Source of the DNA: Chloroflexota bacterium
GTDB lineage: Bacteria; Chloroflexota; Dehalococcoidia; UBA2979
Assembly (NCBI GenBank): GCA_003670735.1
Contig: QWQU01000008.1
Location: 1-37,881 of the forward strand
Direction: 5' to 3'
DNA: 37,881 bases
Under the pieces are notes generated by a model that was given only the letters and a program-made list of their open reading frames with translations, searched no databases and was not told where the DNA came from. Positions 5,582-37,881 of the stretch are shown here, piece by piece (position 1 is the stretch's first letter; every line of letters starts with the position of its first letter). The translations under genes and the position numbers were made by a program.

Positions 5582-7402
5582 ATGCGCGCGTTCAACGACT
5601 CGAGACCTGTGATGCGAACTGGGCTGGCGCTGCCGGCGCAGCTCGTGGTGTTCGCGCTCGTCGGCATCGGCAACGCGCTGGTCGATGCCGCGGTGTTCAT
5701 GGTGCTGGTCCGATCGCTCACGCTGAGCGACGGGCTGCCGGCGACGGTGGCCTCGACGATCGGCTTTGGCACCGGTGCGCTGCACTCCTACCTGTGGAAC
5801 TCGCGCGTGACCTTCCGAACCGGCGCGCATCAGCGAGGCGCACTGACGCGCTTCGTCGTGGTGACACTGCTCGCGGCAGCAGCCTCGGCGCTCGCGTTCG
5901 CAATCGTGCATGCGTACTGGCCGGCGTCCGACACACAGCTCGTCGCCGCGAAGGGCGCGGCGATGGTGGTCGGTGCAATCGCGAACTTCGCGCTGATGCG
6001 CAGCTGGGCATTCGCGCCGCGAGATGACTCGGAGTCGACAGGATCGCAAGAGACCGCGCGCACGCCTCGCGTGCATCCGTTGCTGGCAGTGCTCGCAATT
6101 GCGCTCGTGATCCGGTTGCCGTTCCTCGCGGTGCCCGGCTTCTCGTGGGACATCTTCCTGTTCAGCCAGTGGGCGAACACCGCGGTTGAGCACGGGCTCG
6201 CGAATGCGATGCTGCGACCGGACATGGACTACGTCGGCTACAATTACGTGCTGCTCGTGCTCGGCACGCTCTACGCCGAGGCGACGCATGTAAACGACCT
6301 CGCGGCGAGCTGGGGCTTCGGCCAGACGCTGAAGATCGTGCCGCTGCTGGGTGACCTCGGGGTGGCGGCGCTGCTGTACTTCGTCGGTCAGCGGTGGGGC
6401 GAGATCGTGACGGAGCCGCGCTGGCTCGCACGCATCTCGTGGCTCTCGAGCCTGACCTCGGGCGAGCGACTGGGCGTTGCGGCGGCGGCGCTGTTCGCGC
6501 TGAACCCGGCAACGCTCTACGACTCGGCGTACTGGGGTCAGGTCGACTCCGTGATCACGGCGGCGATGCTCGGCGCGCTGCTGCTGATGGTGACGCGGCA
6601 CCCCGGCTGGGCCGGTGTGGTGCTGGCGCTCGGGTTCCTGGTGAAGCCGCAGCCAGTGCTGCTCGTGCCGCTCGTCGGGTGGAGCGTGCTCTGGCTGAAC
6701 GGCGTCGCGGGACTGGTCCGAGGTGCGATCGGCGGGCTCGTGATGCTCGCGGCCGGGCTCGCTTACTTCTGGGTGGCCGGGATCGGCGATCACATCCTCG
6801 AGATCTACCGGCACCTCTTCGAGACCGGCGACCAGGTCTCCGTCAGCGCGTGGAACATGTGGTGGATCGCCTACCGGCAGCGCGGCAACATCGCGCCGTG
6901 GGACGTCGTGCTCGAGCTGGGTTCGATGGGCGTCACGATCGGTCAGCTCTCGAAGGTGCTGCTGGGTGGCGCGGTCGCGCTCGCGCTCGTGTCGACCGGC
7001 CCGAAGCCGACGATGCACCGCGTGCTGCTGGCGGCGGCGTTCCTCACGTTCGCGTTCTTCATGCTCACGATGAAGATGCACGAGCGATACCTGTTCCCGG
7101 CGCTGGCACTGCTCGCGCCGGTGGCAATCCTCGATCGCCGATGGCCTGCGCTTCATGTCGCATTATCAGTGACGTTCCTCCTCAACCTGTATGACGTGTA
7201 CCCGATGCCGCCTCCGGCGGTGGTTGGCGACTACCACTACATCGGCGCACCGGCGGACATCTGGCTGTCAGCCCTCAACTGCGGTCTGTTCCTCGCCTTT
7301 GCGCTGGCACTGGGGACGGCGGTACCGAGCGCCTGGAGTGGATTCCGGATCCCTCGACCACAGCTGCGGCAGGCTCGGCGCCTCGGGTTGGGGCGCTCGT
7401 AG
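5582..7402 (+). CDS. GtrA domain fused to Gpi18-like (COG5542) mannosyltransferase
   Basis: About 606 residues. The first 150 are a clear GtrA domain of four helices with SYLWNSRVTF and NFALMRSWAF at the helix ends. From about residue 175 it becomes a GT-C glycosyltransferase of the Gpi18-like mannosyltransferase type: WDIFLFSQWANTAVEHG in the first loop, then LNPATLYDSAYWGQVDS and LGFLVKPQPVLLVPL, the two most characteristic motifs. A late MKMHERYLFPALALL motif is also typical. It should transfer a sugar from a polyprenyl-phosphate donor on the outer face of the membrane. GGAGG at 5573-5577 best serves ATG 5582; GTG 5579 is possible but too close. Domain order matches the gene at 2647, suggesting a related pair. 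Confidence 0.87.
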   Translation: MRAFNDSRPVMRTGLALPAQLVVFALVGIGNALVDAAVFMVLVRSLTLSDGLPATVASTIGFGTGALHSYLWNSRVTFRTGAHQRGALTRFVVVTLLAAAASALAFAIVHAYWPASDTQLVAAKGAAMVVGAIANFALMRSWAFAPRDDSESTGSQETARTPRVHPLLAVLAIALVIRLPFLAVPGFSWDIFLFSQWANTAVEHGLANAMLRPDMDYVGYNYVLLVLGTLYAEATHVNDLAASWGFGQTLKIVPLLGDLGVAALLYFVGQRWGEIVTEPRWLARISWLSSLTSGERLGVAAAALFALNPATLYDSAYWGQVDSVITAAMLGALLLMVTRHPGWAGVVLALGFLVKPQPVLLVPLVGWSVLWLNGVAGLVRGAIGGLVMLAAGLAYFWVAGIGDHILEIYRHLFETGDQVSVSAWNMWWIAYRQRGNIAPWDVVLELGSMGVTIGQLSKVLLGGAVALALVSTGPKPTMHRVLLAAAFLTFAFFMLTMKMHERYLFPALALLAPVAILDRRWPALHVALSVTFLLNLYDVYPMPPPAVVGDYHYIGAPADIWLSALNCGLFLAFALALGTAVPSAWSGFRIPRPQLRQARRLGLGRS

Positions 7403-7481
7403 CAAAGGTCGGCCTCCGATCCGATGCTGCGTCCGGCGCTATACTGCGCAGGCACAAACCAGCATTGAACTAGGAGTCGCT

Positions 7482-9770
7482 ATGACCTCGACGCTCCCGA
7501 GTCGGGTTCTCGGTACCAGCCCCGTACGACCGGACGGCGCTGACAAGGTGACGGGCCGCGCGAACTACGGCGCGGACGTGAACCTGCCGCGCATGCTGTT
7601 CGGACGGCTCAAGAAGAGCCCGTACGCGCACGCCATCATCAAGAAGATCGACGTCTCGAAGGCCCTGGCACTGCCGGGTGTCGAGGCGGTTGTCACGGCC
7701 CAGGACTTCCCGGACGTGAACAACATGGACGGCGCTGCGCCACGCAAGTTCCTGATCGGGAACTTCATCGCGGTCGACAAGGTCCTTTACTACGGCCACC
7801 CCGTGGCTGCGGTCGCTGCGACCAGCCCGCACATCGCGGAGGACGCGCTCGACCTGATCGAGGTTGAGTACGAGGTCCTCCCGCCAGTGATGACCGCCGA
7901 AGCGGCGATGTCGCCCGACGCGGCAATCCTGCACCCCGGTATGCGCACCGCTGAGCCGGTCGGCATCAGCGGCGACACCGCGGGCCGCGACTCCAACGTC
8001 GCGTCGCACCTGCAGGTCGCGACCGGTGACGACATCGACGCCGCGTTCGCGGCCGCCGAGATCGTCGTTGAGAACGAGTTCCACACCTCGACCGCGCACC
8101 AGGGCTACCTCGAGCCCCACACGGCGACGGCGCAGTGGAACTCCGACGGCAGCCTCGTGATCTACAGCTCGTCGCAGGGCTCGTTCCAGATCGTGCGCGA
8201 CCCGCTCGCGACGATCCTGAAGATGCCCGCCTCCCGCATTCGCGCGATCCCGATGGAGATCGGCGGCGGCTTCGGTGGCAAGAACCGGCTCTACTGCGAG
8301 CCGCTGGCCGCGATGCTGGCGAAGAAGGCTGAGAAGCCGGTCAAGCTGAGCATGACCCGCGAGGAAGTGATCGAGGCCTCTGGCCCGACCTCCGGCGCGT
8401 GGATCCGTGCCAAGCTCGGCGCGACGAAGGACGGCACGTTCACCGCGTTCCAGATGTGGATCGCGTACGAGGCCGGTGGCTTCCCGGGCTCCTCGGTCGG
8501 CGGTGGTCTGAACACCTCGCTCGGCCAGTACAGCATCCCGAACGTGAAGATGGACGGCTACGACGTCGTCGTGAACCGCCCGCGCAACGCGGCCTACCGC
8601 GCCCCGGGTGTGCCGGCGCCGAACTACGCCATTGAGTCGCTGGTCGACATGATGGCGGAGCGCCTGGACATCGACCCGATCGACATCCGCATCCAGAACT
8701 CGTCGGCTGAGGGCACTCGCCGACCGAACGGCGTCATCATTGGCCCGAACGGCAACCGCGAGGTGATGCAGGCGATCAAGGACTCGGCGCACTACCGCTC
8801 CGAGCTCACCGGCAAGAACCGCGGCCGTGGCGTTGCCATCGGCTTCTGGAACGCCGGCGCTGGTGCGCACTCGATGAACGCCACCGTGAACCTCGATGGC
8901 ACGATCACGCTGAACACCGGCGCGGTCGACATCGGCGGCCTGCGCGCGACCGAGGCGATGACCTTCGCCGAAGTGCTGGGCATCCCGTACGAGGCGACCA
9001 ACCCGCGCATCGTGGACACCGACTCGATCGGCTGGACTACGCTGACGGCAGGCAGCGGCACCGGCGCGGGCATCTCCGCCAGCGCCTTCCTCGTTGCCGG
9101 CCAGATCAAGCAGCGCGCGATTGAGCGCGCCGCCAAGATCTGGGAAGTCGAGGCCTCGACGGTCACGTATGACGTCGAGACTGCTTCGATGACCGGCCCG
9201 GCCGACGCCGAGGGCAAGCCTCGGACGATGACCTTCCAGCAGTTGGCTGCTCAGCAGGCCGGCACTGGTGGGTACATCAGCGGCCACGTCGACAACAGCG
9301 GCGCTCAGGGTGGGCCGACGTACGCCGGCAACATCGTGGACGTCGAAGTCGACGAGGAGACCGGCAAGGTCACCGTGCTCCGCTTCACCGTGGTGCAGGA
9401 CGCCGGCAAGGCGCTGCACCTCGGCTACGTGGAGGGCCAGCTCCAGGGTGGTGCCGCTCAGGGCATCGGCATGGCGCTGACTGAGGAGTACTACTACGAC
9501 GAGAACGGCGTGCTGCGGAACGCGAGCCTGCTCGACTACCGCATCCCGACCGCGCTCGACGTGCCGATGATCGAGACGATCGTCGTCGAGGTCCCGAACC
9601 CCGGTCACCCGCTGGGTGTCCGCGGCGTGGGCGAGTGCGCAATCGTCGTCCCGATGGCGGCTGTGGCGAACGCCGTGGCAAACGCGGTCGGCCTGCGGCC
9701 GACCTCGATGCCGGTGTCGCCGCGCAAGCTGATCGAGATGATCATGGACCGGGACGGCATCGAGGCCTAA
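7482..9770 (+). CDS. Xanthine dehydrogenase/aldehyde oxidase family molybdopterin-binding subunit
   Basis: The 762-residue protein is the large, molybdenum-cofactor subunit of a xanthine oxidase-family hydroxylase. The N-terminus has the a/b hammerhead domain (VTGRANYGADV through SPYAHAIIKKID). GGGFGGK at 261-267 and AYRAP at 371-375 are cofactor-binding signatures, and Glu718 in GVGECAIV is the expected catalytic base. The AYRCSFR loop of form I CO dehydrogenase is absent, so CO is unlikely as substrate; an aldehyde, N-heterocycle or other hydroxylated compound is expected. Start ATG 7482 follows AGGAG (7472-7476). No FAD or 2Fe-2S subunit is adjacent, although such enzymes need them for electron transfer; they must lie elsewhere or be shared. 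Confidence 0.93.
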   Translation: MTSTLPSRVLGTSPVRPDGADKVTGRANYGADVNLPRMLFGRLKKSPYAHAIIKKIDVSKALALPGVEAVVTAQDFPDVNNMDGAAPRKFLIGNFIAVDKVLYYGHPVAAVAATSPHIAEDALDLIEVEYEVLPPVMTAEAAMSPDAAILHPGMRTAEPVGISGDTAGRDSNVASHLQVATGDDIDAAFAAAEIVVENEFHTSTAHQGYLEPHTATAQWNSDGSLVIYSSSQGSFQIVRDPLATILKMPASRIRAIPMEIGGGFGGKNRLYCEPLAAMLAKKAEKPVKLSMTREEVIEASGPTSGAWIRAKLGATKDGTFTAFQMWIAYEAGGFPGSSVGGGLNTSLGQYSIPNVKMDGYDVVVNRPRNAAYRAPGVPAPNYAIESLVDMMAERLDIDPIDIRIQNSSAEGTRRPNGVIIGPNGNREVMQAIKDSAHYRSELTGKNRGRGVAIGFWNAGAGAHSMNATVNLDGTITLNTGAVDIGGLRATEAMTFAEVLGIPYEATNPRIVDTDSIGWTTLTAGSGTGAGISASAFLVAGQIKQRAIERAAKIWEVEASTVTYDVETASMTGPADAEGKPRTMTFQQLAAQQAGTGGYISGHVDNSGAQGGPTYAGNIVDVEVDEETGKVTVLRFTVVQDAGKALHLGYVEGQLQGGAAQGIGMALTEEYYYDENGVLRNASLLDYRIPTALDVPMIETIVVEVPNPGHPLGVRGVGECAIVVPMAAVANAVANAVGLRPTSMPVSPRKLIEMIMDRDGIEA

Positions 9771-9794
9771 GCCTCGAGCCCAGCTCGAACCTCG

Positions 9795-9825
9795 CGAAGG
9801 CGGGCCCCAGTGAGGCCCGCCTTCG
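9795..9825 (+). terminator. Terminator hairpin after the molybdenum hydroxylase gene
   Basis: Perfect 12-bp arms CGAAGGCGGGCC (9795-9806) and its complement (9814-9825) surround a 7-nt loop 24 nt after the stop. Only TCGTCGTT follows, so the T-tract is weak. Confidence 0.78.
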
Positions 9826-10012
9826 TCGTTCATGGCTCGTTCTTATGTGCTGCCAGCGATGTGGATTTTCGCCTCGTTTTCACCTCAAAACGGGCGTGCA
9901 GACCATGCGATTCGTGATAGAGTGCCACTCGCTCGGCGGGGGATACGCCACCGGCGGTGCCGTCACACGCGACGTCTCAGACGCGTGTAGTGGATTCGAG
10001 AGAGGAACGCGC

Positions 10013-11203
10013 ATGCCGATCGAATGGCCAGAGGGAAAGCGCCCCGTCTTCGTGGGTGCTGGTTGGACGATGATCCGTCGCTATATGCCGCGCACCAAGG
10101 CGAGCAACGCCAAGGAAGCAGCGACGATGGCGATCGCTGACGCCGGTCTGAAGGTCTCCGACATCGACGGCATCTTCATCTGGGCCAACCCGAACTGGGG
10201 CAACGTCCAGGGCCCGACGGTGTGGCTGGACATCGCTCAGATGATGCAGGTCATGCCCTGGGAGAACATCAAGTTCTGGCTGCAGCCGGAGGCCGTGGCC
10301 GCCGGTTCCTGCTCGGGCATCCAGTGTGCCGCCCTGGCGCTCGGCGCCGGCGCTGTGAACTACGCGCTCGTCATCCGCACGGGTCACCACCCGGCCGGCG
10401 TGCGCTACCGCCAGATCTCGACGAACCGCGCTCCGGGCAACTCGGCGTTCAGCACGCCGTACGGCCACGGTGTCGGTGGCGCCGGCCAGTCCGTCACGTA
10501 CCAGCGCTACCTCGCCAAGTACGGCGCGAAGCGCGAGGAGATGTGGGGCTACATCGGCACCGCTCACAAGAATGGCCAGGACACCCCGCAGTCCGTGTGG
10601 CGTGGCCGCCTGATCACCGAAGAGGACTACCTCAACGCTCGGTTGATCGCGTACCCGATGAACATCTTCGACAACGACATGCCGTGTGACGGTGTGCTGG
10701 CAGTCGTGATGACGACCGAAGACCGCGCGAAGAGCACGCCGCACCCCGGTGGGTACATCGCGGGCATGGCTGCCATCCCGACGCACCGCAACCAGACTGG
10801 TATCACCGAGCCCCTGGAGGGCCTGGAGGAGACCAACGGCTGGCAGGCGAAGAACCTGTACGCGAGCGCTGGCCTGAACCCGACCGACGTCACCGTGAAG
10901 CACGTCTACGACGGCTTCTCGCCAATGGTCTGGATGTGGATCGAGGCCTTCGGCTTCGCTCCCAAGGGCGAGGCACACGCGTGGGCGCAGCCGGAGACCA
11001 TCGGTCGCGACGGCCCGCACCCGCTGAACATGTCGGGCGGTAACCTCGGTTCCGGCCGCGTGCACGGCTTCGGTCACGTGCTGGAGACGGCGATGCAGCT
11101 CATGGGCACCGCCGGCATCCGCCAGGTCAAGAACAACGAGGTCGCACTCTGCGAGACCGGCCCCTTCGGCTCGGCCTCCAGCTTCATGGCGACTCGCGAC
11201 TAG
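10013..11203 (+). CDS. Thiolase-like (SCP-x/acetyl-CoA acetyltransferase-like) protein
   Basis: This 396-residue protein belongs to the thiolase superfamily, in the divergent branch annotated as thiolase-like or lipid-transfer proteins. A nucleophile candidate is Cys100 in AGSCSGIQC. The second catalytic region reads NMSGGNLGSGRVHGFGH, with His351 and His355 in place of the usual GHPxG motif, and a C-terminal Cys380 sits in ALCETGPFGS where thiolases have CxGGGxG. This suggests possible catalysis, but with altered geometry, so classical beta-ketothiolase activity is uncertain. The ATG at 10013 is preceded by AGAGAGGAA; upstream in-frame starts lack a ribosome site. A hairpin follows. A role in degrading acyl-CoA or sterol/aromatic side chains is inference. 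Confidence 0.87.
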   Translation: MPIEWPEGKRPVFVGAGWTMIRRYMPRTKASNAKEAATMAIADAGLKVSDIDGIFIWANPNWGNVQGPTVWLDIAQMMQVMPWENIKFWLQPEAVAAGSCSGIQCAALALGAGAVNYALVIRTGHHPAGVRYRQISTNRAPGNSAFSTPYGHGVGGAGQSVTYQRYLAKYGAKREEMWGYIGTAHKNGQDTPQSVWRGRLITEEDYLNARLIAYPMNIFDNDMPCDGVLAVVMTTEDRAKSTPHPGGYIAGMAAIPTHRNQTGITEPLEGLEETNGWQAKNLYASAGLNPTDVTVKHVYDGFSPMVWMWIEAFGFAPKGEAHAWAQPETIGRDGPHPLNMSGGNLGSGRVHGFGHVLETAMQLMGTAGIRQVKNNEVALCETGPFGSASSFMATRD

Positions 11204-29665: not shown

Positions 29666-30358
29666 ATGATCGGCAAAGTCCTGGGCATGACGGCACTGGG
29701 CGTCGGTGCATACACGGCGTATCGGATGATGCAGCCGTCGGTGGCGATGGATGGCGGCAACGGCGGCACGCTTGAGGTGCCCTACCCGCTTGGCATGGGC
29801 TCGTCGATGACGCGCTGGCGTCGGCGCATCGCAGCGATGGTCGCGGGCAACGAGTACAACACACTCGAGGACCTCGAGGCAGGCGATGAGGTGGCCGACA
29901 CCGGCAGCACCTCGTTTCAGTGGGCCTTCGGCTCCACCGAAGCGAGCGCGGTCACAACGGCGCTGGCGATGGAGCGCATCGTCACTGAGCCGCCGACCCC
30001 TTCGCCTCAAGACGAGCTCCTCATGACCGACAAGCTCGAGTCGGCCGGCATCCACCGGGACGAGGAGTCGCGCGACGCGTTCCACCCGGTGCCCCGCTCG
30101 CACGTCTCGGGTCACGCCTCGCCTCGCCGGCTCGCCCGCGCGATCGAGCGGGCGCTGGGCACGGAGAACGTCGGCGTGATCGTGGACACCAGTAAGACGA
30201 TCGTCGAGATCGACGAGCACCACGACGTCGGCCGCGGCAATGTGCTGCTGATCGACGGCGAAGGCACCTCGAAGCTGCTGCGCCACGGCAGCATGCGCTC
30301 GCTGGTGGCGGCGCTCTCGTCGGCTTCCTCGGACGACAGGTCGTCCAGCCCGAGCTAG
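29666..30358 (+). CDS. Unknown protein, membrane-anchored N-terminus
   Basis: The 230-residue protein begins with a hydrophobic stretch, MIGKVLGMTALGVGAYTAY, likely a membrane anchor or signal. A polar, probably disordered centre follows. Residues 150-220 form an alpha/beta region, with RRLARAIERALGTENVGVIV and GRGNVLLIDGEGTSKLLRHG, before a Ser-rich tail. I do not recognise the family. The GAGGAGGT ribosome site just upstream of ATG 29666 is one of the strongest in the window. It ends the run of unknown genes. Confidence 0.72.
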   Translation: MIGKVLGMTALGVGAYTAYRMMQPSVAMDGGNGGTLEVPYPLGMGSSMTRWRRRIAAMVAGNEYNTLEDLEAGDEVADTGSTSFQWAFGSTEASAVTTALAMERIVTEPPTPSPQDELLMTDKLESAGIHRDEESRDAFHPVPRSHVSGHASPRRLARAIERALGTENVGVIVDTSKTIVEIDEHHDVGRGNVLLIDGEGTSKLLRHGSMRSLVAALSSASSDDRSSSPS

Positions 30359-30380
30359 CCGCCGGATTCGGCACCACATC

Positions 30381-30410
30381 CAGAAGGGAGGCCAATTGGC
30401 CTCCCTTCTG
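30381..30410 (+). terminator. Strong terminator, near-perfect palindrome
   Basis: CAGAAGGGAGGCC (30381-30393) pairs with GGCCTCCCTTCTG (30398-30410) across an AATT centre. The T-rich end of the stem is followed by TGTAT. It separates the unknown gene run from the solute-binding protein gene. Confidence 0.82.
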
Positions 30411-30452
30411 TGTATCCCCTCGCCATTTGGACTGCCTCTCAACACATTCGTG

Positions 30453-30481
30453 TTGATTTGCAACTGTAATAGCCGTATACG
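30453..30481 (+). promoter_or_regulatory. Sigma-70-type promoter of the first solute-binding protein gene
   Basis: TTGATT (30453-30458) and TATACG (30476-30481) are separated by exactly 17 bp. The expected start site falls at about 30488, inside ATCCGTGA (30483-30490), an octamer found at a similar place before the two paralogues. A leader stem-loop at 30492-30521 follows. Confidence 0.6.
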
Positions 30482-30491
30482 TATCCGTGAT

Positions 30492-30521
30492 AACGCCCTG
30501 GCAGCGCCAGCCAAGGGCGTT
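30492..30521 (+). promoter_or_regulatory. Leader stem-loop upstream of the first solute-binding protein
   Basis: AACGCCCT (30492-30499) pairs with AGGGCGTT (30514-30521), and inside it TGGC pairs with GCCA (30506-30509). It ends about 12 nt before the AGAGAGGAAA ribosome site and could stabilise the mRNA or regulate its translation. Confidence 0.45.
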
Positions 30522-30547
30522 CGTGGCATTCCAGAGAGAGGAAACCA

Positions 30548-32317
30548 GTGGTAGATATCGATTTGGACCGGTTCTACAGCCGGCGTCGCGTCATCGAAGG
30601 GATGGGCGTCAGTGCGCTCGGCCTCGCTGGGGCAGCGTTGTTGGGCTGTGGGAGCACCACGAAGGCAGAGCCCGGCGCTGCCACCAACGCCGGGCCTGCA
30701 TCGGTAGCCGGAGCCACCAAGGGCGGTGGCCTGCCGATGACGGCACCGAAGATCGCCGGCACCCCGAAGCGAGGCGGCACCTGGACCAGCCAGGTCACCT
30801 CGACCTATAAGCAGCACGACGCGCATACCGCGCTCGCGACGAACATCTATCACCACATCGGTGACAAGGGCATCGAGCCCCACCCGGTCACCAACAAGCT
30901 GCTGCCGCACATCATCAGCTCGTGGGAAGTCGCCGACAAAGAGGGCACGACCCTCGTCATGAAGGTGAATCCGAATGTCCAGGTACACGACGTGGCGCCG
31001 TGGAACGGTCGCCGCTTCGACGCCGAGGATGTCGCGTGGAACCTCGAGCGCCTCGGTGGGCTGTACGCCGACCGGCTGAAGATTCCGCTGACGTCGTTCC
31101 AGCGCGCCTCGATGGTGGCGAACATCACCAAGGCAGTCGCGGTCGACAAGGACACCGTACGCGTGACGCTGTCGCGTCCGAACAACGCGTTCTTCGCTGG
31201 CCTCACTGAGAACCGTGTGCCGTTCATGCCGAAGGAAGTCGACGACATTGGGTTCAAGGACCCGATGAAGCTCGCCGGCACCGGCCCTTTCCAGATGGCC
31301 GAGTGGGTGAACGACCAGAAGTCGGTCTACAAGCGCAACCCGAACTACGCCAAGTTCCGCCCGAATGAGCCGTACTTCGATCAGCACGTGCAGATCGTGA
31401 TCCCGGACACTGCCGGCGCCGAGGCCGCGTTCATGTCGGGCCAGACGCAGATCCAGGCGGCACCGACGCCCGACAAGATCGCCCAGTTCAAGAAGGCGAA
31501 GCCGGACGCCAACCTCTACACCTGGGTAGACCAGAACTGGCAGCACATCCGCCCCAGCGTCGAGTACGGACCCTTCAAGGACTTCCGCGTCCGCAAGGGT
31601 CTGCACATGATCGGCGACTACAAGGCCATGGGCGACGGCTACTACACCGACGGCTGGGCATACCAGGCCTCGTTGAGCCCGATGTTCCCGGAAGCCTGGG
31701 GCCCGGACAAGGTGAAGACCCTGCCCGGCTACAACCCGGACACCAAGGAGAAGGATCGCGCCGAGGGCATCAAGATGATCGCCGCCGCTGGCTACCCCAA
31801 CGGCAAGGGCATGGACTTCGAGATCATCTTCCAGAACCCATCGGACGTGAACAAGGAGAACGCAACGCGCTTCCAGGCGCAGATCTCCGCAGCCCTGCCC
31901 GACATCAAGTTCAAGCTCCACCCATACCCGGACAGCGCATCGTTCTCCGTGCCGCAGGCTGACGGCAAGTTCCAGATCCTCGCTTACACCATCACCGCTG
32001 CTCCGGACGCGGTGATCGAGTTCACGTCGCAGTACCACTCGAAGGGCAGCCGCAACTACGGCCACTTCAACGAGCCGGCACTCGATGCACTCATGGACAA
32101 GGCGATCGTCGAGCTCAACAACGACGCTCGTACGAAGATCATGGACGAGGCGCAGCAGAAGTTCATGGACGAGTGGATGCCCATGTACGTGCTGTACGCG
32201 CAGCCAGTGAAGAACATGATCCAGGGCAACGTTGGCGGTTACGACACCACCGCAGGCATCGCCTACGGCTACAGTGCGAACACCAAGGTCTGTCGCTGGT
32301 ACTACGTCGACAAGTAG
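30548..32317 (+). CDS. Family-5 (peptide/organic solute) ABC substrate-binding lipoprotein, Tat type
   Basis: The 589-residue protein starts at GTG 30548 after AGAGAGGAAA. Its N-terminus has a twin-arginine motif (YSRRRVIEGMG) and a lipobox (LAGAALLGC), so it should be exported folded by Tat and lipid-anchored. The mature part has SBP family-5 features: a RGGTWTSQVTSTY start, WNGRRFDAEDVAWNLER, the conserved KIPLTSFQRASMV, LYTWVDQNWQHIRPSVEYGP and EWMPMYVLYA. Family members bind oligopeptides, nickel, glycosides or opines; the ligand here is unknown. No ABC permease or ATPase is adjacent. It shares most of its length and motifs with the proteins at 35564 and 37502. Confidence 0.92.
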   Translation: MVDIDLDRFYSRRRVIEGMGVSALGLAGAALLGCGSTTKAEPGAATNAGPASVAGATKGGGLPMTAPKIAGTPKRGGTWTSQVTSTYKQHDAHTALATNIYHHIGDKGIEPHPVTNKLLPHIISSWEVADKEGTTLVMKVNPNVQVHDVAPWNGRRFDAEDVAWNLERLGGLYADRLKIPLTSFQRASMVANITKAVAVDKDTVRVTLSRPNNAFFAGLTENRVPFMPKEVDDIGFKDPMKLAGTGPFQMAEWVNDQKSVYKRNPNYAKFRPNEPYFDQHVQIVIPDTAGAEAAFMSGQTQIQAAPTPDKIAQFKKAKPDANLYTWVDQNWQHIRPSVEYGPFKDFRVRKGLHMIGDYKAMGDGYYTDGWAYQASLSPMFPEAWGPDKVKTLPGYNPDTKEKDRAEGIKMIAAAGYPNGKGMDFEIIFQNPSDVNKENATRFQAQISAALPDIKFKLHPYPDSASFSVPQADGKFQILAYTITAAPDAVIEFTSQYHSKGSRNYGHFNEPALDALMDKAIVELNNDARTKIMDEAQQKFMDEWMPMYVLYAQPVKNMIQGNVGGYDTTAGIAYGYSANTKVCRWYYVDK

Positions 32318-32345
32318 CGCGAGCTAGCTCGACTACACGTTGGGA

Positions 32346-32389
32346 ACAAGACGAAGGCCCGCATCGAACGATGCGGGCCTTCGTCTTGT
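32346..32389. terminator. Bidirectional terminator, 20-bp perfect stem
   Basis: Arms 32346-32365 and 32370-32389 are exact complements over 20 bp with a GAAC loop, the longest perfect stem in the window. It lies 28 nt after the solute-binding protein stop and 26 nt beyond the stop of the convergent MFS gene. Confidence 0.85.
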
Positions 32390-32415
32390 CCTCGCGCCGC
32401 GAGAGCGAGACGCGG

Positions 32416-33753
32416 CTACGAGGCGACTTCGACCGCGAGTGCGGTTCGCGCATGACTCGGTGGCTTGGGCTTGGTCGAGAGCAGGAAGAACACCGAACCG
32501 GCGAAGGCGGCAAGCGCGATCACGGTGAAGCCGCTCTGGTAGTTGCCGAAGTGGTCGGCCATGAGACCGGCGATCAGCGGGCCGCTGATCGTGCCCGCCA
32601 TGACGATCGTCGAGGACCAGCCCATGATCGAGCCGAAGTTGCCCGCACCGAAGTAGTCGGCACGAATCGCCTGCATCAGCGGACCTCGGATGCCCCACGC
32701 GAGGCCGTGCAACACAGCGAACGCAGCGACCATCGCGAACGAGTTCGCATACGCGACGAGCAATAGACCAACCATGTGCATCGCCATGCACACGATCGTG
32801 ACCGCACGCTTGTCAAAGCGATCGCCGAGGAAGCCGCCGGCGATCTGGCCGACCATCTGCATCGCCTGCATTGCCATCACGACGAACCCAGCAGCCTCGA
32901 GTGAGTACTTGAGGTCCTCGTGCAGATGCGCGACGAGGTGCACGGTCACAACGGAGACGACGAGCAGCGCTGAGCCGTGGCCGAGCGAGATACACCAGAA
33001 GGCGCGCGTGCGCAGTGCCTCGCGGACGGTGAAGTCCTCGGAGCCATCGACTGCCACGGCGTTGCTGCGGCGCGCGTTCGCGCTCAGCGCGTACTCGGCA
33101 GCGTCCTCAGCGGTCACGCCATCGATCGTCTCGCCCATGTCCTCGGGTCGCAGGCGGATCGCCTGCGTGAGCGGCAAGCCGATCGCGATGATGATCAGGC
33201 CCGAGACGAACGCCGTCGGCCGCCATCCGTATCGCTCGAGCGCGATCACGACGAGCGGCGCCATTAGGCCGCCGAGCGAGAAGCCGATCTGCGAGATCGA
33301 CAGCGCCTTCGAGCGGTGGCGACTGAACCAGCGCACGAGCGCGACCGTCACCGAAAGGAAACCGCCGAGGCTCTGGCCGGCGGTCATCATGAAGAACGTG
33401 AGGTAGTACATCGGCAGCGAGTGGATCTGGCTGAACAGCATGAAGCCCACGCCGAAGACGACGATGCCGATGCGCATGGTCGTCCTCGGGCCGAAGCGGT
33501 CGGTCATCCAGCCATTCAGCGGCCCGAGGCCACTCTCGAGACGGGCGAGCGAGAAGGCGAGCGAGAGCAGCGCCTTGCTCCAGCCGAACTCCTGCCCAAG
33601 CAGCACGACGTAAGCGCCGGTCGCGCTCTGGAGTAGCGCCCCACCCAGCACCTGGACGGCACCCCCGGCGACAACCATCCACCAGCCATAGAAGACGTGG
33701 CCCTGCGGAGCGATCGCCCGATAGGTCGATCCGCGCATCCCAGTGAGACTCAT
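32416..33753 (-). CDS. MFS transporter (monocarboxylate/oxalate-formate type)
   Basis: The 445-residue protein has about twelve helices. It begins with a short polar stretch followed by GHVFYGWWMVVAGGAVQVLG, the opening typical of oxalate/formate and monocarboxylate MFS carriers. Loop 2-3 has GWMTDRFGPRTTM, and a second-half motif is GGFLGDRFDKRAV. It plausibly moves an organic acid. The start ATG 33753 (or 33738) lacks a strong ribosome site. It is divergent from the CaiB/BaiF gene, and the shared intergenic region carries two palindromes. Transport of a carboxylic acid that is then activated to a CoA ester is a natural reading of the pair. Confidence 0.85.
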   Translation of the reverse strand: MSLTGMRGSTYRAIAPQGHVFYGWWMVVAGGAVQVLGGALLQSATGAYVVLLGQEFGWSKALLSLAFSLARLESGLGPLNGWMTDRFGPRTTMRIGIVVFGVGFMLFSQIHSLPMYYLTFFMMTAGQSLGGFLSVTVALVRWFSRHRSKALSISQIGFSLGGLMAPLVVIALERYGWRPTAFVSGLIIIAIGLPLTQAIRLRPEDMGETIDGVTAEDAAEYALSANARRSNAVAVDGSEDFTVREALRTRAFWCISLGHGSALLVVSVVTVHLVAHLHEDLKYSLEAAGFVVMAMQAMQMVGQIAGGFLGDRFDKRAVTIVCMAMHMVGLLLVAYANSFAMVAAFAVLHGLAWGIRGPLMQAIRADYFGAGNFGSIMGWSSTIVMAGTISGPLIAGLMADHFGNYQSGFTVIALAAFAGSVFFLLSTKPKPPSHARTALAVEVAS

Positions 33754-33829
33754 CGGCGCCCCCGAACGGCAGCAGCAGGACGCGGGCCGCCTCGAGATGG
33801 CGCGGCCGACGTTGGCGTACAGGTGAGCA

Positions 33830-33848
33830 GGTACCCGGCTAGGGTACC
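33830..33848. promoter_or_regulatory. Palindromic operator candidate, divergent promoter
   Basis: GGTACCC (33830-33836) and GGGTACC (33842-33848) are a perfect 7-bp inverted repeat with a 5-nt spacer, between the divergent MFS and CoA-transferase genes. Length and symmetry fit a dimeric repressor site such as a TetR or GntR binding site, but the regulator is not in the window. Confidence 0.4.
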
Positions 33849-33930
33849 CCCGCGGGCGAGGGCTGTCCCTCCCCCGACCGCACCTGCATCGAGCTGTAAT
33901 GGGGCAATCGAGCACAGCCGTATCACGAAG

Positions 33931-33940
33931 TGGTATACCA
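33931..33940. promoter_or_regulatory. Short palindrome TGGTATACCA
   Basis: A self-complementary 10-mer lies about 64 nt before the CoA-transferase start. It includes TATACC, a possible -10 element, so it might be a promoter or an operator overlapping one. Confidence 0.35.
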
Positions 33941-34003
33941 ACGCTGCATCCAACAGGCGGCCGAGGACGTCCCGGCCAGCCCATGTGTCGGAGGGTCAGA
34001 CCC

Positions 34004-35368
34004 ATGCCATCTCGCCCGCTTGAAGGTATTCGCGTCCTCGACTTCACCTGGGTCCGCGCCGGACCGTGGGCCACGCGCTGGCTCGCGATCCTCGGTGCCG
34101 ACGTGATCAAGGTGGAATGGCCAGACCCCGCGATTGGTGGCTCCACCGGTCGCGTCGTCCGCAACATTCCGGGCATGGGCACCACGCCTGATGGCGTGCC
34201 GCGCAGCATGAACTCCGACGGTCACTTCAACGACATGCACGCGATGAAGCGCAGCGTGACTTTGAACGCGCGCACACCGCGCGGCCTCGAGCTCGCGAAG
34301 CAGCTCGTCGCGATGTCTGACGTCGTGATCGAGAACTTCAGCGCCGGCGTGCTGAAGTCATGGGGCATCGGCTTCGAAGAGATGCAGAAGCTCCGCCCGG
34401 ACATCATCTACGTCTCGATGGCAGGCCTCGGACACACCGGTCCGCGCGCCCACTTCCAGACGATGGGCCCGTCGGTGCAGGCGCTCTCCGGCCTGACGTT
34501 TACCTCGGGTCTGCCAGATCGTCAGCCTGCTGGTTGGGGCTGGTCGTACATGGACGACACCGGCGGGATGTATGGGATCATGTCCGTGCTCACCGCACTG
34601 CAGCACCGGCAGCGCACGGGCGAGGGTCAGCACGTCGACCTGTCGCAGGTCTCGGCGGCAATGACGCTGCTCGGCCCGGCGCTGCTCGACAACACCGTGA
34701 ACGGCCGTGGCACGCGTCGCGAGGGCTTCCCGCCGGGCGACCGCGCGGTGTGGCCGGGCACGCCCACCGTCTTCAACCACCGTGGCCCGATCGCGGTGCC
34801 GCACAACGCGTACCGCACCAAGGGCGATGGCCACAACGACTGGGCCACGATCGTCTGCGAGACGGACGAGCAGTGGCAGAACCTCGTGAAGGTAATGGGC
34901 AGCCCCGCGTGGGCGACCGATGCCAAGCTCGCGACGCTCGAGGGACGCATCGAGGCCCAGGAGGCGATCGACGCGCACATCGACGCGTGGACGCACGGCA
35001 TCGAGAAGTACGAGCTGACCGACCTCTGCCAGCAGGGCGGCGTGCCGGCGATGGCCGTGCAGAGCAACGAAGACCGCGTCGAGCACGACCCGCAGCTCAA
35101 GGCTCGCGGCATGTACGACGAGACCTCGCACCCGATTCTCGGCTCGTGGCCGATGCAGCACGCGCCGTGGCAGATGTCCGAGACGCCGACTCCGATCGAC
35201 CGCGGCGCCCCGATCTGCGGCGAGCACAACATCGAGATCCTCTGCGGCATGCTCGGCGTGACGCAGGAGGAGCTGGCCGCCGGCTACGCCGACAACACCT
35301 TCTGGCCGAAGTCAGTCCCGCTCGAGAGCTACCTGACCGAGGCCCTGGAGGGTGCGAAAGTCAGCTAA
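34004..35368 (+). CDS. CaiB/BaiF family CoA-transferase (type III)
   Basis: The 454-residue protein starts at ATG 34004 with GGAGGGTCAG upstream. It has the class III CoA-transferase pattern: PLEGIRVLDFTWVRAGPWAT, LGADVIKVEWP, NARTPRGLELAKQLVAMSDV, VIENFSAGVLKSWGI and the catalytic region YMDDTGGMYG with Asp184/Asp185 as the expected acidic nucleophile. Such enzymes move CoA between acyl carriers, for example in carnitine, bile acid, formyl/oxalyl or aromatic acid metabolism. The partner acid is unknown, but the neighbouring MFS and solute-binding genes suggest an imported carboxylate. It is followed by a hairpin and the second solute-binding protein. Confidence 0.92.
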   Translation: MPSRPLEGIRVLDFTWVRAGPWATRWLAILGADVIKVEWPDPAIGGSTGRVVRNIPGMGTTPDGVPRSMNSDGHFNDMHAMKRSVTLNARTPRGLELAKQLVAMSDVVIENFSAGVLKSWGIGFEEMQKLRPDIIYVSMAGLGHTGPRAHFQTMGPSVQALSGLTFTSGLPDRQPAGWGWSYMDDTGGMYGIMSVLTALQHRQRTGEGQHVDLSQVSAAMTLLGPALLDNTVNGRGTRREGFPPGDRAVWPGTPTVFNHRGPIAVPHNAYRTKGDGHNDWATIVCETDEQWQNLVKVMGSPAWATDAKLATLEGRIEAQEAIDAHIDAWTHGIEKYELTDLCQQGGVPAMAVQSNEDRVEHDPQLKARGMYDETSHPILGSWPMQHAPWQMSETPTPIDRGAPICGEHNIEILCGMLGVTQEELAAGYADNTFWPKSVPLESYLTEALEGAKVS

Positions 35369-35420
35369 TCAGGAATTACGGATAGAGGTTGTAATAACCT
35401 CACCCGAACGGCAACGTCAT

Positions 35421-35449
35421 GAGAAACCCACCAAATTGGTGGGTTTCTC
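35421..35449 (+). terminator. Terminator hairpin after the CoA-transferase
   Basis: GAGAAACCCACC (35421-35432) and GGTGGGTTTCTC (35438-35449) pair perfectly over 12 bp around AAATT. A smaller hairpin (35385-35401, GAGGTT/AACCTC) precedes it. Confidence 0.8.
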
Positions 35450-35487
35450 CGTTGATCAGGCATCTATCGCGCGATGACATCCGTAGA

Positions 35488-35504
35488 TATATTCGCATCC
35501 GTGA
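35488..35504 (+). promoter_or_regulatory. Promoter region of the second solute-binding protein gene
   Basis: TATATT (35488-35493) is a fair -10 element followed by ATCCGTGA (35497-35504), the same octamer found before the first paralogue and, with one mismatch, before the third. No clear -35 is seen at the usual spacing. Confidence 0.4.
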
Positions 35505-35563
35505 TTCGCCGTCTCCGCCTCACAACCACGGGGCGGCGAGATCCTCAGAGGGAGGACGCATAC

Positions 35564-37321
35564 GTGACCCTGGGTACTGATCGGATTAGCCGGAGATCAA
35601 TCATCTCCGGGATGGGCGTCGGGGCGATGGGCCTCGCTGGCGCCGCGTTGCTGGGATGCGGCTCCAAGCCGGCCGGCACCGCACAGACGCAGATCGACGC
35701 CAACAAGCAGGCGATCGCCAACGCCCCCAAGGGCACTGGCCTCCCGCAGACGGCACCGGTCAACACTGGCAAGCAGCGCGAGGGTGGCGTCTTCACGCAG
35801 TCGATCACCTCGACGTACGTGCAGCACGACCCCGGCACCGCACTGGCCGGCAACATCTGGCACATCATCGGTGACAAGGGCCTGGAGCCCGACCCGGGCA
35901 CCGCAGCGATTCGCCCGCACATCATGACCTCGTGGGAAGTCGCTGACCCGACGACCCTCGTCTTCAAGGTCAAGCCCGACATCAAGATGCACAACATGGC
36001 GCCGTGGAACGGTCGCACGTTCGACGCGTCTGATGTCGCATGGAACCTGGAGCGCATCGGTGGTCTGTACGCCGAGAAGCTGAAGATTCCGTTGGCGTCA
36101 TTCCAGCGCGCCTCGATGGTCGGCAACATCACCAAGGCTGTCGCGGTCGACGCGACCACGGTCAAGGTGACGCTGTCGAAGCCGAACGGCTCGTTCTTCA
36201 ACGGCCTGATGGACACTCGTGTCCCCTTCGCGCCGAAGGAGATGGACGACATCGGCTGGACCGACCCGCTGAAGATGGGCGGCATGGGCCCCTACCAGGT
36301 CTCTGAGTGGGTCAAAGACCAGAAGATGAACTTCAAGAAGCACCCCGGTTACTTCCGTCAGGGAGAGCCGCACTTCGACGAGTTCAAGTACCTGGTGATC
36401 CCCGACAAGGCCGGTCAGGTCGCTGCGTTCTCCAGTAAGCAGATGCAGCACATCACTGCACTGACTCAGACCGACCTGGACACGATCAAGAAGACCACGC
36501 CGGACGCACTGCTTTACACGTGGATCGACACGAACTGGAACCACCTGCGTCCGAGCCTCGACTACGGACCGTTCAAGGACTTCCGAGTCCGCAACGCGCT
36601 GCACCTGGCGATGGATCGCGACAACATCAACGACGGTCTGTACGGCCCCGGCTGGGGCTACCAGGCCTCGCTGAGCCCCGCGTTCCCCGAGGGCTGGAAG
36701 CCCGACAAGGTGAAGGGCCTGCCCGGCTTCAACCCGGCCACCAAGGTGCAGGATCGCGCCGAGGCCAAGAAGCTGCTCGAGGCTGCTGGTTACCCGAACG
36801 GCAAGGGCATCGACTTCGAGATCATCTTCAGCGCCGCCGGTGCGCCGGCGAACGCTCAGGAGAACGCGCTGCGCTTCCAGGCGCAGATGCAGCAGGTGTT
36901 CCCCGAGATGAAGGTCAACATGAAGCCGTACGCGGACAGCGCTGCATTCGGCGTGCCGCAGGCCAAGGGTGACTTCAAGATGGTGTCGTACGTCATCACG
37001 GCGGCGCCGGACGCAGTCATCGAGATGCAGTCGCAGTACCACTCGACGGGTAGCCGCAACTACGGCCACTTCTCCGACAAGAACGTGGACGCGCTCCTCG
37101 ACAAGGCGCAGGGCGAGCTCAACCGTGACGCTCGTGGCGCCCTCATGGAGGAGTTCCAGACCAAGTTCCTCACGGACTGGATGCCGATGTACGTGCTGTG
37201 CGCCAACCCGGTGCGCAACATGGTGCAGGGCAACATCGGCGGCTACGACACCACGGCTGGCCCGTGGTACGGCTACTCGACTCAGTCGAAGGTCTGCCGC
37301 TGGTTCTACGTCGACAAGTAA
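35564..37321 (+). CDS. Family-5 ABC substrate-binding lipoprotein, Tat type (second copy)
   Basis: GTG 35564 with GAGGGAGGA upstream gives a 585-residue protein; an earlier in-frame ATG at 35474 falls in the promoter region and is not used. Tat motif SRRSIISGMG and lipobox LAGAALLGC match the first copy. Mature-region motifs are the same: WNGRTFDASDVAWNLER, KIPLASFQRASMV, PSLDYGPFKDFRVRNALHLA, AAGYPNGKGIDFEIIF and the C-terminal VCRWFYVDK. Most aligned positions agree, so it is a duplicate of the gene at 30548, diverged enough for a different ligand. No permease is nearby. A 19-bp hairpin follows. Confidence 0.92.
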   Translation: MTLGTDRISRRSIISGMGVGAMGLAGAALLGCGSKPAGTAQTQIDANKQAIANAPKGTGLPQTAPVNTGKQREGGVFTQSITSTYVQHDPGTALAGNIWHIIGDKGLEPDPGTAAIRPHIMTSWEVADPTTLVFKVKPDIKMHNMAPWNGRTFDASDVAWNLERIGGLYAEKLKIPLASFQRASMVGNITKAVAVDATTVKVTLSKPNGSFFNGLMDTRVPFAPKEMDDIGWTDPLKMGGMGPYQVSEWVKDQKMNFKKHPGYFRQGEPHFDEFKYLVIPDKAGQVAAFSSKQMQHITALTQTDLDTIKKTTPDALLYTWIDTNWNHLRPSLDYGPFKDFRVRNALHLAMDRDNINDGLYGPGWGYQASLSPAFPEGWKPDKVKGLPGFNPATKVQDRAEAKKLLEAAGYPNGKGIDFEIIFSAAGAPANAQENALRFQAQMQQVFPEMKVNMKPYADSAAFGVPQAKGDFKMVSYVITAAPDAVIEMQSQYHSTGSRNYGHFSDKNVDALLDKAQGELNRDARGALMEEFQTKFLTDWMPMYVLCANPVRNMVQGNIGGYDTTAGPWYGYSTQSKVCRWFYVDK

Positions 37322-37337
37322 CCTCAAGGCTCACGCC

Positions 37338-37379
37338 ACGAGTGCAACGGGGCTCCTTCGGGAGCCCCGTTGCACTCGT
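37338..37379 (+). terminator. Terminator, 19-bp perfect stem with TTCG loop
   Basis: Arms 37338-37356 and 37361-37379 are exact complements, closed by the stable TTCG tetraloop, 17 nt after the stop of the second solute-binding protein. No T-run follows. Confidence 0.85.
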
Positions 37380-37470
37380 TACTTCCTTCACGCAGTGCTC
37401 ACTCTCACTCGCACGTGATCTTTACAACATTTGTAATCTCTCAATAACCGTGACGCCCCACGGCCGTACG

Positions 37471-37486
37471 CCTCGAACATTCGAGG
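37471..37486 (+). promoter_or_regulatory. Leader hairpin before the third solute-binding protein
   Basis: CCTCGA (37471-37476) and TCGAGG (37481-37486) pair around ACAT. The 3' arm overlaps the start of the GAGGAGAGAGAAG ribosome site, so the hairpin could partly hide it. The octamer AACCGTGA (37446-37453) lies just upstream. Confidence 0.4.
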
Positions 37487-37501
37487 AGAGAGAAGCAAGC
37501 G

Positions 37502-37881
37502 GTGACCACGACATTCGGTTCGGTGACTCGTCGGCAGGTCGTCCAGGGACTCGGCATCGGTGCGATGGGATTGGCGGGGGCTGCACTGCTCGGGTGCGGC
37601 AGCTCGAAGTCCGCTGACGGTGGAAGCGGCGCGAACGCGCAAGCCACAACCGTCGCTGGCTCGACGCGCGGTGCGGGTTTGCCACTCGTCGCACCGAAGG
37701 TCGCCGGCAAGGTGAAGCCAGGCGGCACCTGGACCTCGGCTGCGACGACATTCCCGAAGCAGCTCGACTCGCACACCGCGCTCGGCGCCGGCCTGCACGG
37801 CTATATCGGCGAGAAGGGCATCGAGCCGCACCCAACCACCAATGCCCTGCTCCCTCACGTGCTGACCTCATGGGAGGTCGC
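37502..37881 (+). CDS. Family-5 ABC substrate-binding lipoprotein, Tat type (third copy, cut by window end)
   Basis: The frame opens at GTG 37502 after GAGGAGAGAGAAG and runs off the window after 126 codons. It repeats the pattern of the other two copies: Tat motif TRRQVVQGLG, lipobox LAGAALLGC, a Ser/Gly/Ala linker, then PGGTWTSAATTFPKQLDSHT and GEKGIEPHPTTNALLPHV, closely matching the first copy. It is the third member of a tandem family, so the cluster may continue beyond the window. Confidence 0.9.
   Translation, partial: MTTTFGSVTRRQVVQGLGIGAMGLAGAALLGCGSSKSADGGSGANAQATTVAGSTRGAGLPLVAPKVAGKVKPGGTWTSAATTFPKQLDSHTALGAGLHGYIGEKGIEPHPTTNALLPHVLTSWEV

Follow-up and report, generated by a model that had tools for sequence, protein, structure and literature searches.

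In Pseudomonas aeruginosa, five DppA proteins (DppA1-A5) serve one DppBCDF transporter (PMC4206461), and large expansions of orphan solute-binding proteins (SBPs) of the tripartite tricarboxylate transporter (TTT) family occur in Bordetella and Rhodoplanes (PMC5994714). In the SAR202 Chloroflexota, the CaiB and major facilitator superfamily (MFS) families are expanded (PMC5395668). In this study, we analysed a 37881-bp stretch of DNA (the window) from an uncultured bacterium that is probably a member of the Chloroflexota, the window being the whole of contig C78 of the metagenome-assembled genome (MAG) G000 (1.36 Mb, 84 contigs, 77% complete). The window carries three genes for family-5 SBPs (SBP1, SBP2 and SBP3), with genes for a CaiB/BaiF (family III) coenzyme A (CoA)-transferase and an MFS carrier, divergent to each other, between SBP1 and SBP2, and it stops at position 37881, within SBP3. 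We consider it probable that these proteins belong to a receptor bank, in which lipoprotein SBPs feed a few shared ATP-binding cassette (ABC) cores encoded elsewhere in the genome, as DppA1-A5 feed DppBCDF in Pseudomonas.

According to this proposal, SBP1, SBP2 and SBP3 would be members of a large lipid-anchored bank, each binding a different small-molecule ligand outside the membrane and passing it to a few common Dpp/Nik-type permeases (DppB/DppC), which would draw their energy from OppD/OppF-type ATPases encoded as a stand-alone pair, presumably also in G000. Each SBP would have its own transcription unit, consisting of a hairpin, a palindromic operator, a ribosome-binding site (RBS) and the gene. 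The CaiB of the window, or another family III CoA-transferase, would turn the imported carboxylate into a CoA ester for oxidation, and the MFS carrier, which resembles monocarboxylate transporters (MCT-like), may provide a second route for a related acid.

Receptors, permeases and ATPases

An earlier note on this DNA had suggested that the SBPs may feed a permease encoded elsewhere, and this idea is supported by the permease genes beside their close paralogues, by the many SBPs for each DppB and by the stand-alone ATPase pair of related genomes. G000 has 15 matches to PF00496 and three DppB/DppC pairs, on contigs C6, C17 and C15. The order on C6 is an fmdB-like gene, an SBP with 71% identity to SBP2, DppB and DppC, while C17 carries divergent DppB/DppC, a fused CaiB, an fmdB-like gene and two SBPs; the SBP accompanying the pair on C15 lacks the twin-arginine (RR) and lipobox signal. 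A comparable order was found on contig C5 of G001, a genome from the same genus, where the nearest relative of the window CaiB (80% identity) comes first, and then a second, broken CaiB, an SBP, DppB and DppC.

The nearest genomes have many receptors per ABC core. G001 has 16 SBP matches to five DppB and three ATPase genes, and two genomes of other genera, G004 and G005, have 18 and 17 SBP matches, respectively, to two and one DppB and two ATPase genes each. Across the family the number of SBP matches ranges from 6 to 34 per genome. These copy numbers are lower bounds since many SBP genes lie at contig ends, as do 6 of the 16 in G001 (P ~8e-6, taking 60 ends in ~1800 genes as a rough estimate).

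OppD/OppF-type ATPases with an oligo_HPY domain were identified in 27 of the 30 genomes of our search of relatives. In G001, G004 and G005 the pair lies between thrS and lepA (both named from sequence) and has no adjoining permease or SBP (Table 1). The earlier note had advised looking for DppB, DppC and DppD genes in the genome, which yielded the three permease pairs, but no ATPase of this type with oligo_HPY was found in the 77%-complete MAG. Since lepA is also missing from G000 and from G002 (67% complete), the thrS-lepA stretch with its ATPase locus was probably lost from both in an assembly gap; G002 has another ATPase pair, accompanied by an SBP and a permease of its own (L049).

The earlier statement that no permease or ATPase gene occurs in these 7.3 kb is literally true, but carries little weight as the contig ends in SBP3, DppB/DppC pairs are present elsewhere in the genome and ATPase pairs are present in relatives. 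More generally, a permease missing beside an SBP says little in a fragmented MAG, because these assemblies often break at SBP genes. An alternative is that duplicated receptors serve an ordinary ABC importer of their own, with permease and ATPase genes shortly beyond the contig end; the break inside SBP3 and the SBP-DppB-DppC operons of G000 and its relatives are suggestive of this. We find it improbable, however, as the window-type operons of relatives have no ATPase pair, most SBP genes (even complete ones on long contigs) have no adjoining permease and each SBP of the window has its own hairpin and upstream region. SBP3 does not continue on contig C51, as by inspection the first residues of C51 belong to a different type of SBP where the overlap was expected. 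The second SBP of the array on C51 (L001:1545-3361) is split into two frames by a frameshift that is either real or an assembly error.

The orphan SBPs might instead be sensors that, once loaded with ligand, act on histidine kinases or chemoreceptors of the membrane rather than deliver the ligand to a permease; such a role has been put forward for orphan TTT SBPs (PMC5994714). A CHASE4 membrane protein (L001:7487-8098) does follow four tandem SBPs on C51, and a dCache histidine kinase (L003:881-2575) follows an SBP fragment of another kind on C21. We nevertheless judge a sensory role unlikely, since we recognised no such partner next to the window copies or to most of the G001 and G002 SBPs, and DppB/DppC directly follow window-type paralogues in G000 and G001. 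Surface scavenging or storage, with SBPs holding nutrients at the membrane for uptake via the MFS instead of an ABC permease, would fit two sites in G001 (L061, L066) where an MCT-like MFS gene and a window-type SBP are divergent, but is very improbable, as many SBP loci lack an MFS and such carriers are not known to require a binding protein.

Table 1. Features of the window and the stand-alone ATPase pairs of related genomes (window positions unless a genome, contig and locus are named).
Feature	Position	Strand	Evidence or sequence
SBP1, family-5 solute-binding protein, Tat-type lipoprotein signal	30548..32317	+	PF00496 8.7e-45, 153.8 bits (cut-off 32.4)
MFS carrier, monocarboxylate/L-lactate type	~32416..33753	-	PF07690 (MFS_1) 2.3e-45; start 33753 or 33738
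CaiB/BaiF (family III) CoA-transferase, BbsEF-like	34004..35368	+	PF02515 2.6e-94, 316.8 bits
SBP2, family-5 solute-binding protein, Tat-type lipoprotein signal	35564..37321	+	PF00496 2.4e-55, 188.6 bits (cut-off 32.4)
SBP3, N-terminal part, truncated at contig end	37502..37881	+	start GTG 37502; 126 codons visible
13-bp hairpin, terminator-like, separating SBP1 from upstream gene	30381..30410		perfect stem CAGAAGGGAGGCCAATTGGCCTCCCTTCTG; no T run
13-bp hairpin between CaiB and SBP2	35421..35449		GAGAAACCCACCAAATTGGTGGGTTTCTC
19-bp hairpin between SBP2 and SBP3	37338..37379		ACGAGTGCAACGGGGCTCCTTCGGGAGCCCCGTTGCACTCGT
Palindromic operator candidate of SBP1	30441..30454		AACACATTCGTGTT; 17.0 bits, best of the window in the palindromic matrix scan
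Weak palindromic operator candidate of SBP2	35492..35505		TTCGCATCCGTGAT; 10.6 bits
Palindromic operator candidate of SBP3	37424..37437		ACAACATTTGTAAT; 13.1 bits; 1.9% of controls as high with G000 held out
Element upstream of CaiB	33922..33941		ATCACGAAGTGGTATACCAA, direct reading; poor score with 14-bp matrix
Stand-alone OppD/OppF pair, G001	C18 L048:6476-8523		79-83% identical across genera
Stand-alone OppD/OppF pair, G004	C49 L050:6206-8377		79-83% identical across genera
Stand-alone OppD/OppF pair, G005	C47 L051:3530-5579		79-83% identical across genera

A shared palindrome and the CoA-transferase

The hairpins before SBP1, between CaiB and SBP2 and between SBP2 and SBP3 make the three SBPs look like separate transcription units. 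A scan of positions 30000-37881 for sigma-70 consensus promoters and terminators returned no promoter, and terminators at chance level since the hairpins have no T runs. The likely true start of SBP2 is the GTG at 35564, preceded by the RBS GAGGGAGG, rather than 35474.

An expectation-maximisation motif search of 22 SBP upstream regions from three genomes identified the palindrome ATCACGTACGTGAT upstream of most SBP genes. The palindromic model reached a log-likelihood of 76.5, versus 17-23 for letter shuffles and 30-45 for random sets of 22 other genes. With each genome held out in turn, most SBP upstream regions scored above at least 95% of control genes, and none of the control genes scored as high as the SBP1 site. 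The failures were C51d, C17a, C6, C26b of G001 and C6 of G002; the SBPs of C17a and C6 come after an fmdB-like gene that carries its own site. Among 20 SBPs from three other genera, used as an out-of-sample set, 17 were above the 95th and 10 above the 99th percentile of the controls (Mann-Whitney P 1e-12). Exact palindrome patterns alone are not specific enough, as many of their genome-wide matches are intragenic. In three whole genomes an exact sub-pattern had 33 matches, compared to 9 for the reversed pattern. They include sites upstream of two SBPs that had not been used for training, of two G002 genes for window-type CaiB (sharing 61 and 79% identity with the CaiB of the window) and of a small G001 gene whose homologue (71%) precedes a xanthine-dehydrogenase-type gene in G002; the remaining matches, inside genes, are probably due to chance. 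The element upstream of the window CaiB scores poorly with the 14-bp position weight matrix due to its shorter spacer. In G001, ATCACGAAAGTGGTATACCTA lies ~80 bp before the CaiB with 80% identity, and its inner spacer is one base longer than that in the window. Such a shared palindromic control sequence of SBP genes has apparently not been described before and points to a common regulator; no transcription factor was recognised by eye among the listed genes downstream of palindrome sites, for which no family search was run.

The CoA-transferase genes are themselves expanded, with 10-33 CaiB matches per genome. Of the 16 window-type SBP clusters, 7 have a CaiB no more than 3 kb away, where chance would give 1.3 at most (P ~1e-4); for a second SBP clade the figure is 3 of 9 (P ~0.02), and the other SBPs show no such excess. 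This proximity, and the palindrome upstream of some window-type CaiB genes, support the tie between SBPs and CoA-transferase proposed in the earlier note. Among proteins of solved structure, the window CaiB is closest to a subunit of benzylsuccinate CoA-transferase (9fn0_B, 1.4e-61), and its catalytic Asp column is kept, aligning with the Asp of YfdW and of 9fn0. CaiB genes are paired or fused in several relatives, but the window has one. On C5 of G001, the second CaiB (L058:6566-7731), which follows the intact one and precedes the SBP-DppBC operon, is broken by a stop and a frame change. This broken copy and the single CaiB of the window may reflect loss of the second subunit.

Other enzymes recur in these neighbourhoods. 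The window has a xanthine-dehydrogenase-type gene (7191-9770, named from sequence), whose homologues adjoin the CaiB-SBP-DppBC genes in G001 and lie near an SBP in G002. Thiolase-like genes in the window (9635-11203) and at L008:1337-2527 have 92% identity over 396 residues, and the latter adjoins the SBP-DppBC operon of C6. A zinc-ribbon gene resembling fmdB is found repeatedly between CaiB and SBP or DppBC (L006:8667-9227, L008:7985-8476, L052:5200-5760 and L052:14400-14912), and the palindrome is upstream of two of these genes. A ChsH2-type zinc-ribbon/OB-fold protein (L058:1759-2211), a type tied to thiolase or acyl-CoA steps of steroid side-chain breakdown, follows a DppBC operon.

Aquatic Chloroflexota that have not been cultured are believed to oxidise refractory dissolved organic matter, although how they select and import it is little understood. 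A family-wide regulon is a tentative possibility, in which one transcription factor acting on ATCACGTACGTGAT would govern many individually transcribed SBPs together with CoA-transferases resembling BbsEF and an operon of the xanthine-dehydrogenase type. The cell could then sample many dissolved carboxylates via few permeases and one ATPase pair. If true, a receptor bank tied by an operator to carboxylate-activating enzymes would offer a concrete route to the substrates and the rest of the pathway.

Signals, paralogy and substrates of the SBPs

Identification of SBP1 and SBP2 as family-5 proteins by PF00496, and of the CoA-transferase and MFS carrier between them by PF02515 and PF07690, agrees with the earlier note. 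Its third SBP is seen for 126 codons only, a fragment with no Pfam match of its own and up to 68% identity to the N-termini of related SBPs. Membership of the TTT/Bug (TctC) proteins was excluded, as SBP_bac_5 alone matched in Pfam. The best solved relative of the MFS carrier is the SfMCT L-lactate transporter (6g9x, 3.6e-19).

The twin-arginine and lipobox motifs claimed for each copy are present in all three (SRRRVIEG...ALLGC in SBP1, SRRSIISG...ALLGC in SBP2 and TRRQVVQG...ALLGC in SBP3), and in each the RR and a weakly hydrophobic stretch are followed by a lipobox 12-21 residues from the RR, the spacing range given for haloarchaea (PMC2945643). The twin-arginine translocation (Tat) model TIGR01409, being short and insensitive, gave 12.9 bits for SBP3 (cut-off 16.7) and nothing for SBP1 or SBP2; our assignment of the window SBPs to Tat is based on the motif. 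In an alignment of 22 sequences (A1) the RR columns are at least 90% conserved and the lipobox Cys is invariant, and G000 encodes TatC on C36 (7e-57). The suggestion that Tat export of a lipoprotein is uncommon and indicates a cofactor is not supported, as RR and lipobox were found in 20 of 20 SBPs checked from three other genera. In haloarchaea, Tat is the predicted route for most lipoproteins (PMC2945643), and Tat/SPII signals are recognised as a class of their own (PMC9287161). Nothing that we observed points to a cofactor, and we rejected this reading since the closest solved relatives are mostly peptide-binding and the predicted export route appears to be a lineage-wide habit.

The window copies are 44-62% identical among themselves (62% for SBP1 versus SBP2), and the C6 and C77 SBPs share 71-73% identity with SBP2. 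In the tree of copies that the earlier note had called for, SBP1 and SBP3 fall into one group together with SBPs from two further species of the genus (support 100/99), and SBP2 falls into another with those of C6, C77 and C5 and a G002 protein (support 92/97). As both groups are shared across species, the copies are older than the species, and the tree and identities together rule out a recent tandem triplication. A second, more distant SBP clade (35% identical) has its own arrays, of four copies on C51 and two on C17.

The AlphaFold2 model of SBP2 (pLDDT 78.9, with most residues >70 from residue 90 onward) has the two-lobe DppA/OppA/GbpA fold, with Foldseek matches to 3m8u, 6ofq, 5f1q and 1dpp (E <=1e-30, TMt ~0.8). 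Neither SBP1 nor SBP2 could be placed in a named transporter, and the SBPs scored 72-78 bits against the NCBIfam DppA equivalog, whose cut-off is 1005. We take Asp408 (amino end) and Arg355 (carboxyl end) to be the peptide-binding anchors of DppA. Canonical peptide binding by these SBPs appears unlikely because the anchors are not conserved in profile alignments of moderate certainty, in which the Asp408 column has no acidic residue and the Arg355 column is variable. The likeness of CaiB to benzylsuccinate CoA-transferase suggests carboxylate substrates, and with the thiolase and xanthine-dehydrogenase-type neighbours and the missing anchors it makes carboxylates rather than peptides our best guess. 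No benzylsuccinate synthase genes were noticed, though no search was aimed at them.

Several observations weigh against a shared receptor bank of this kind. There is no permease on contig C78, the ATPase is missing from the MAG, and the physical pairing of orphan SBPs with particular permeases is our inference from gene arrangement and copy numbers. Some relatives (e.g., G008 and G010) have many more DppB, which makes the sharing less extreme there. The SBP2 site is weak, with 11.6% of control genes scoring as high when G000 is held out, and the window CaiB has the variant ATCACGAAGTGGTATACC ~63 bp upstream whereas its G001 orthologue is preceded by ATCACGAAAGTGGTATACC. Several SBP clusters have no CaiB nearby. 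The proposed substrate class leans on neighbours and absent anchors in moderately certain alignment columns.

Comparison with described systems

The CoA-transferase of the window resembles BbsEF (PDB 9fn0) in its catalytic Asp and in having relatives that are paired or fused as a two-subunit enzyme. BbsEF, however, consists of two family III subunits, and the single CaiB of the window has a pair or fusion only in its relatives. The expanded CaiB/BaiF and MFS families of SAR202, read as a sign of refractory organic matter oxidation (PMC5395668, PMC10444878), are a further likeness among uncultured Chloroflexota, although the parts of those reports that were searched contain no SBP receptor bank or common operator. 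We found no direct match in the literature on SBP banks in freshwater Chloroflexota.

As in the TTT/Bug expansions, there are many binding proteins and few membrane components, and array members are often closer to proteins encoded elsewhere. The TTT SBPs, though, go with a secondary transporter (PMC5994714), whereas the SBPs here belong to PF00496 and would work with an ABC core. The likeness to DppA1-A5 and DppBCDF of P. aeruginosa lies in several family-5 SBPs, encoded near and far, that would widen the specificity of one Dpp-type core. However, peptides were shown experimentally to be the ligands of the Pseudomonas proteins (PMC4206461), while the SBPs described here lack the peptide anchors, are more numerous, have lipoprotein signals of the Tat type and share both a palindrome and a link to CoA-transferases. 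The arrangement in the window is a variant of the P. aeruginosa DppA, TTT SBP and SAR202 cases.

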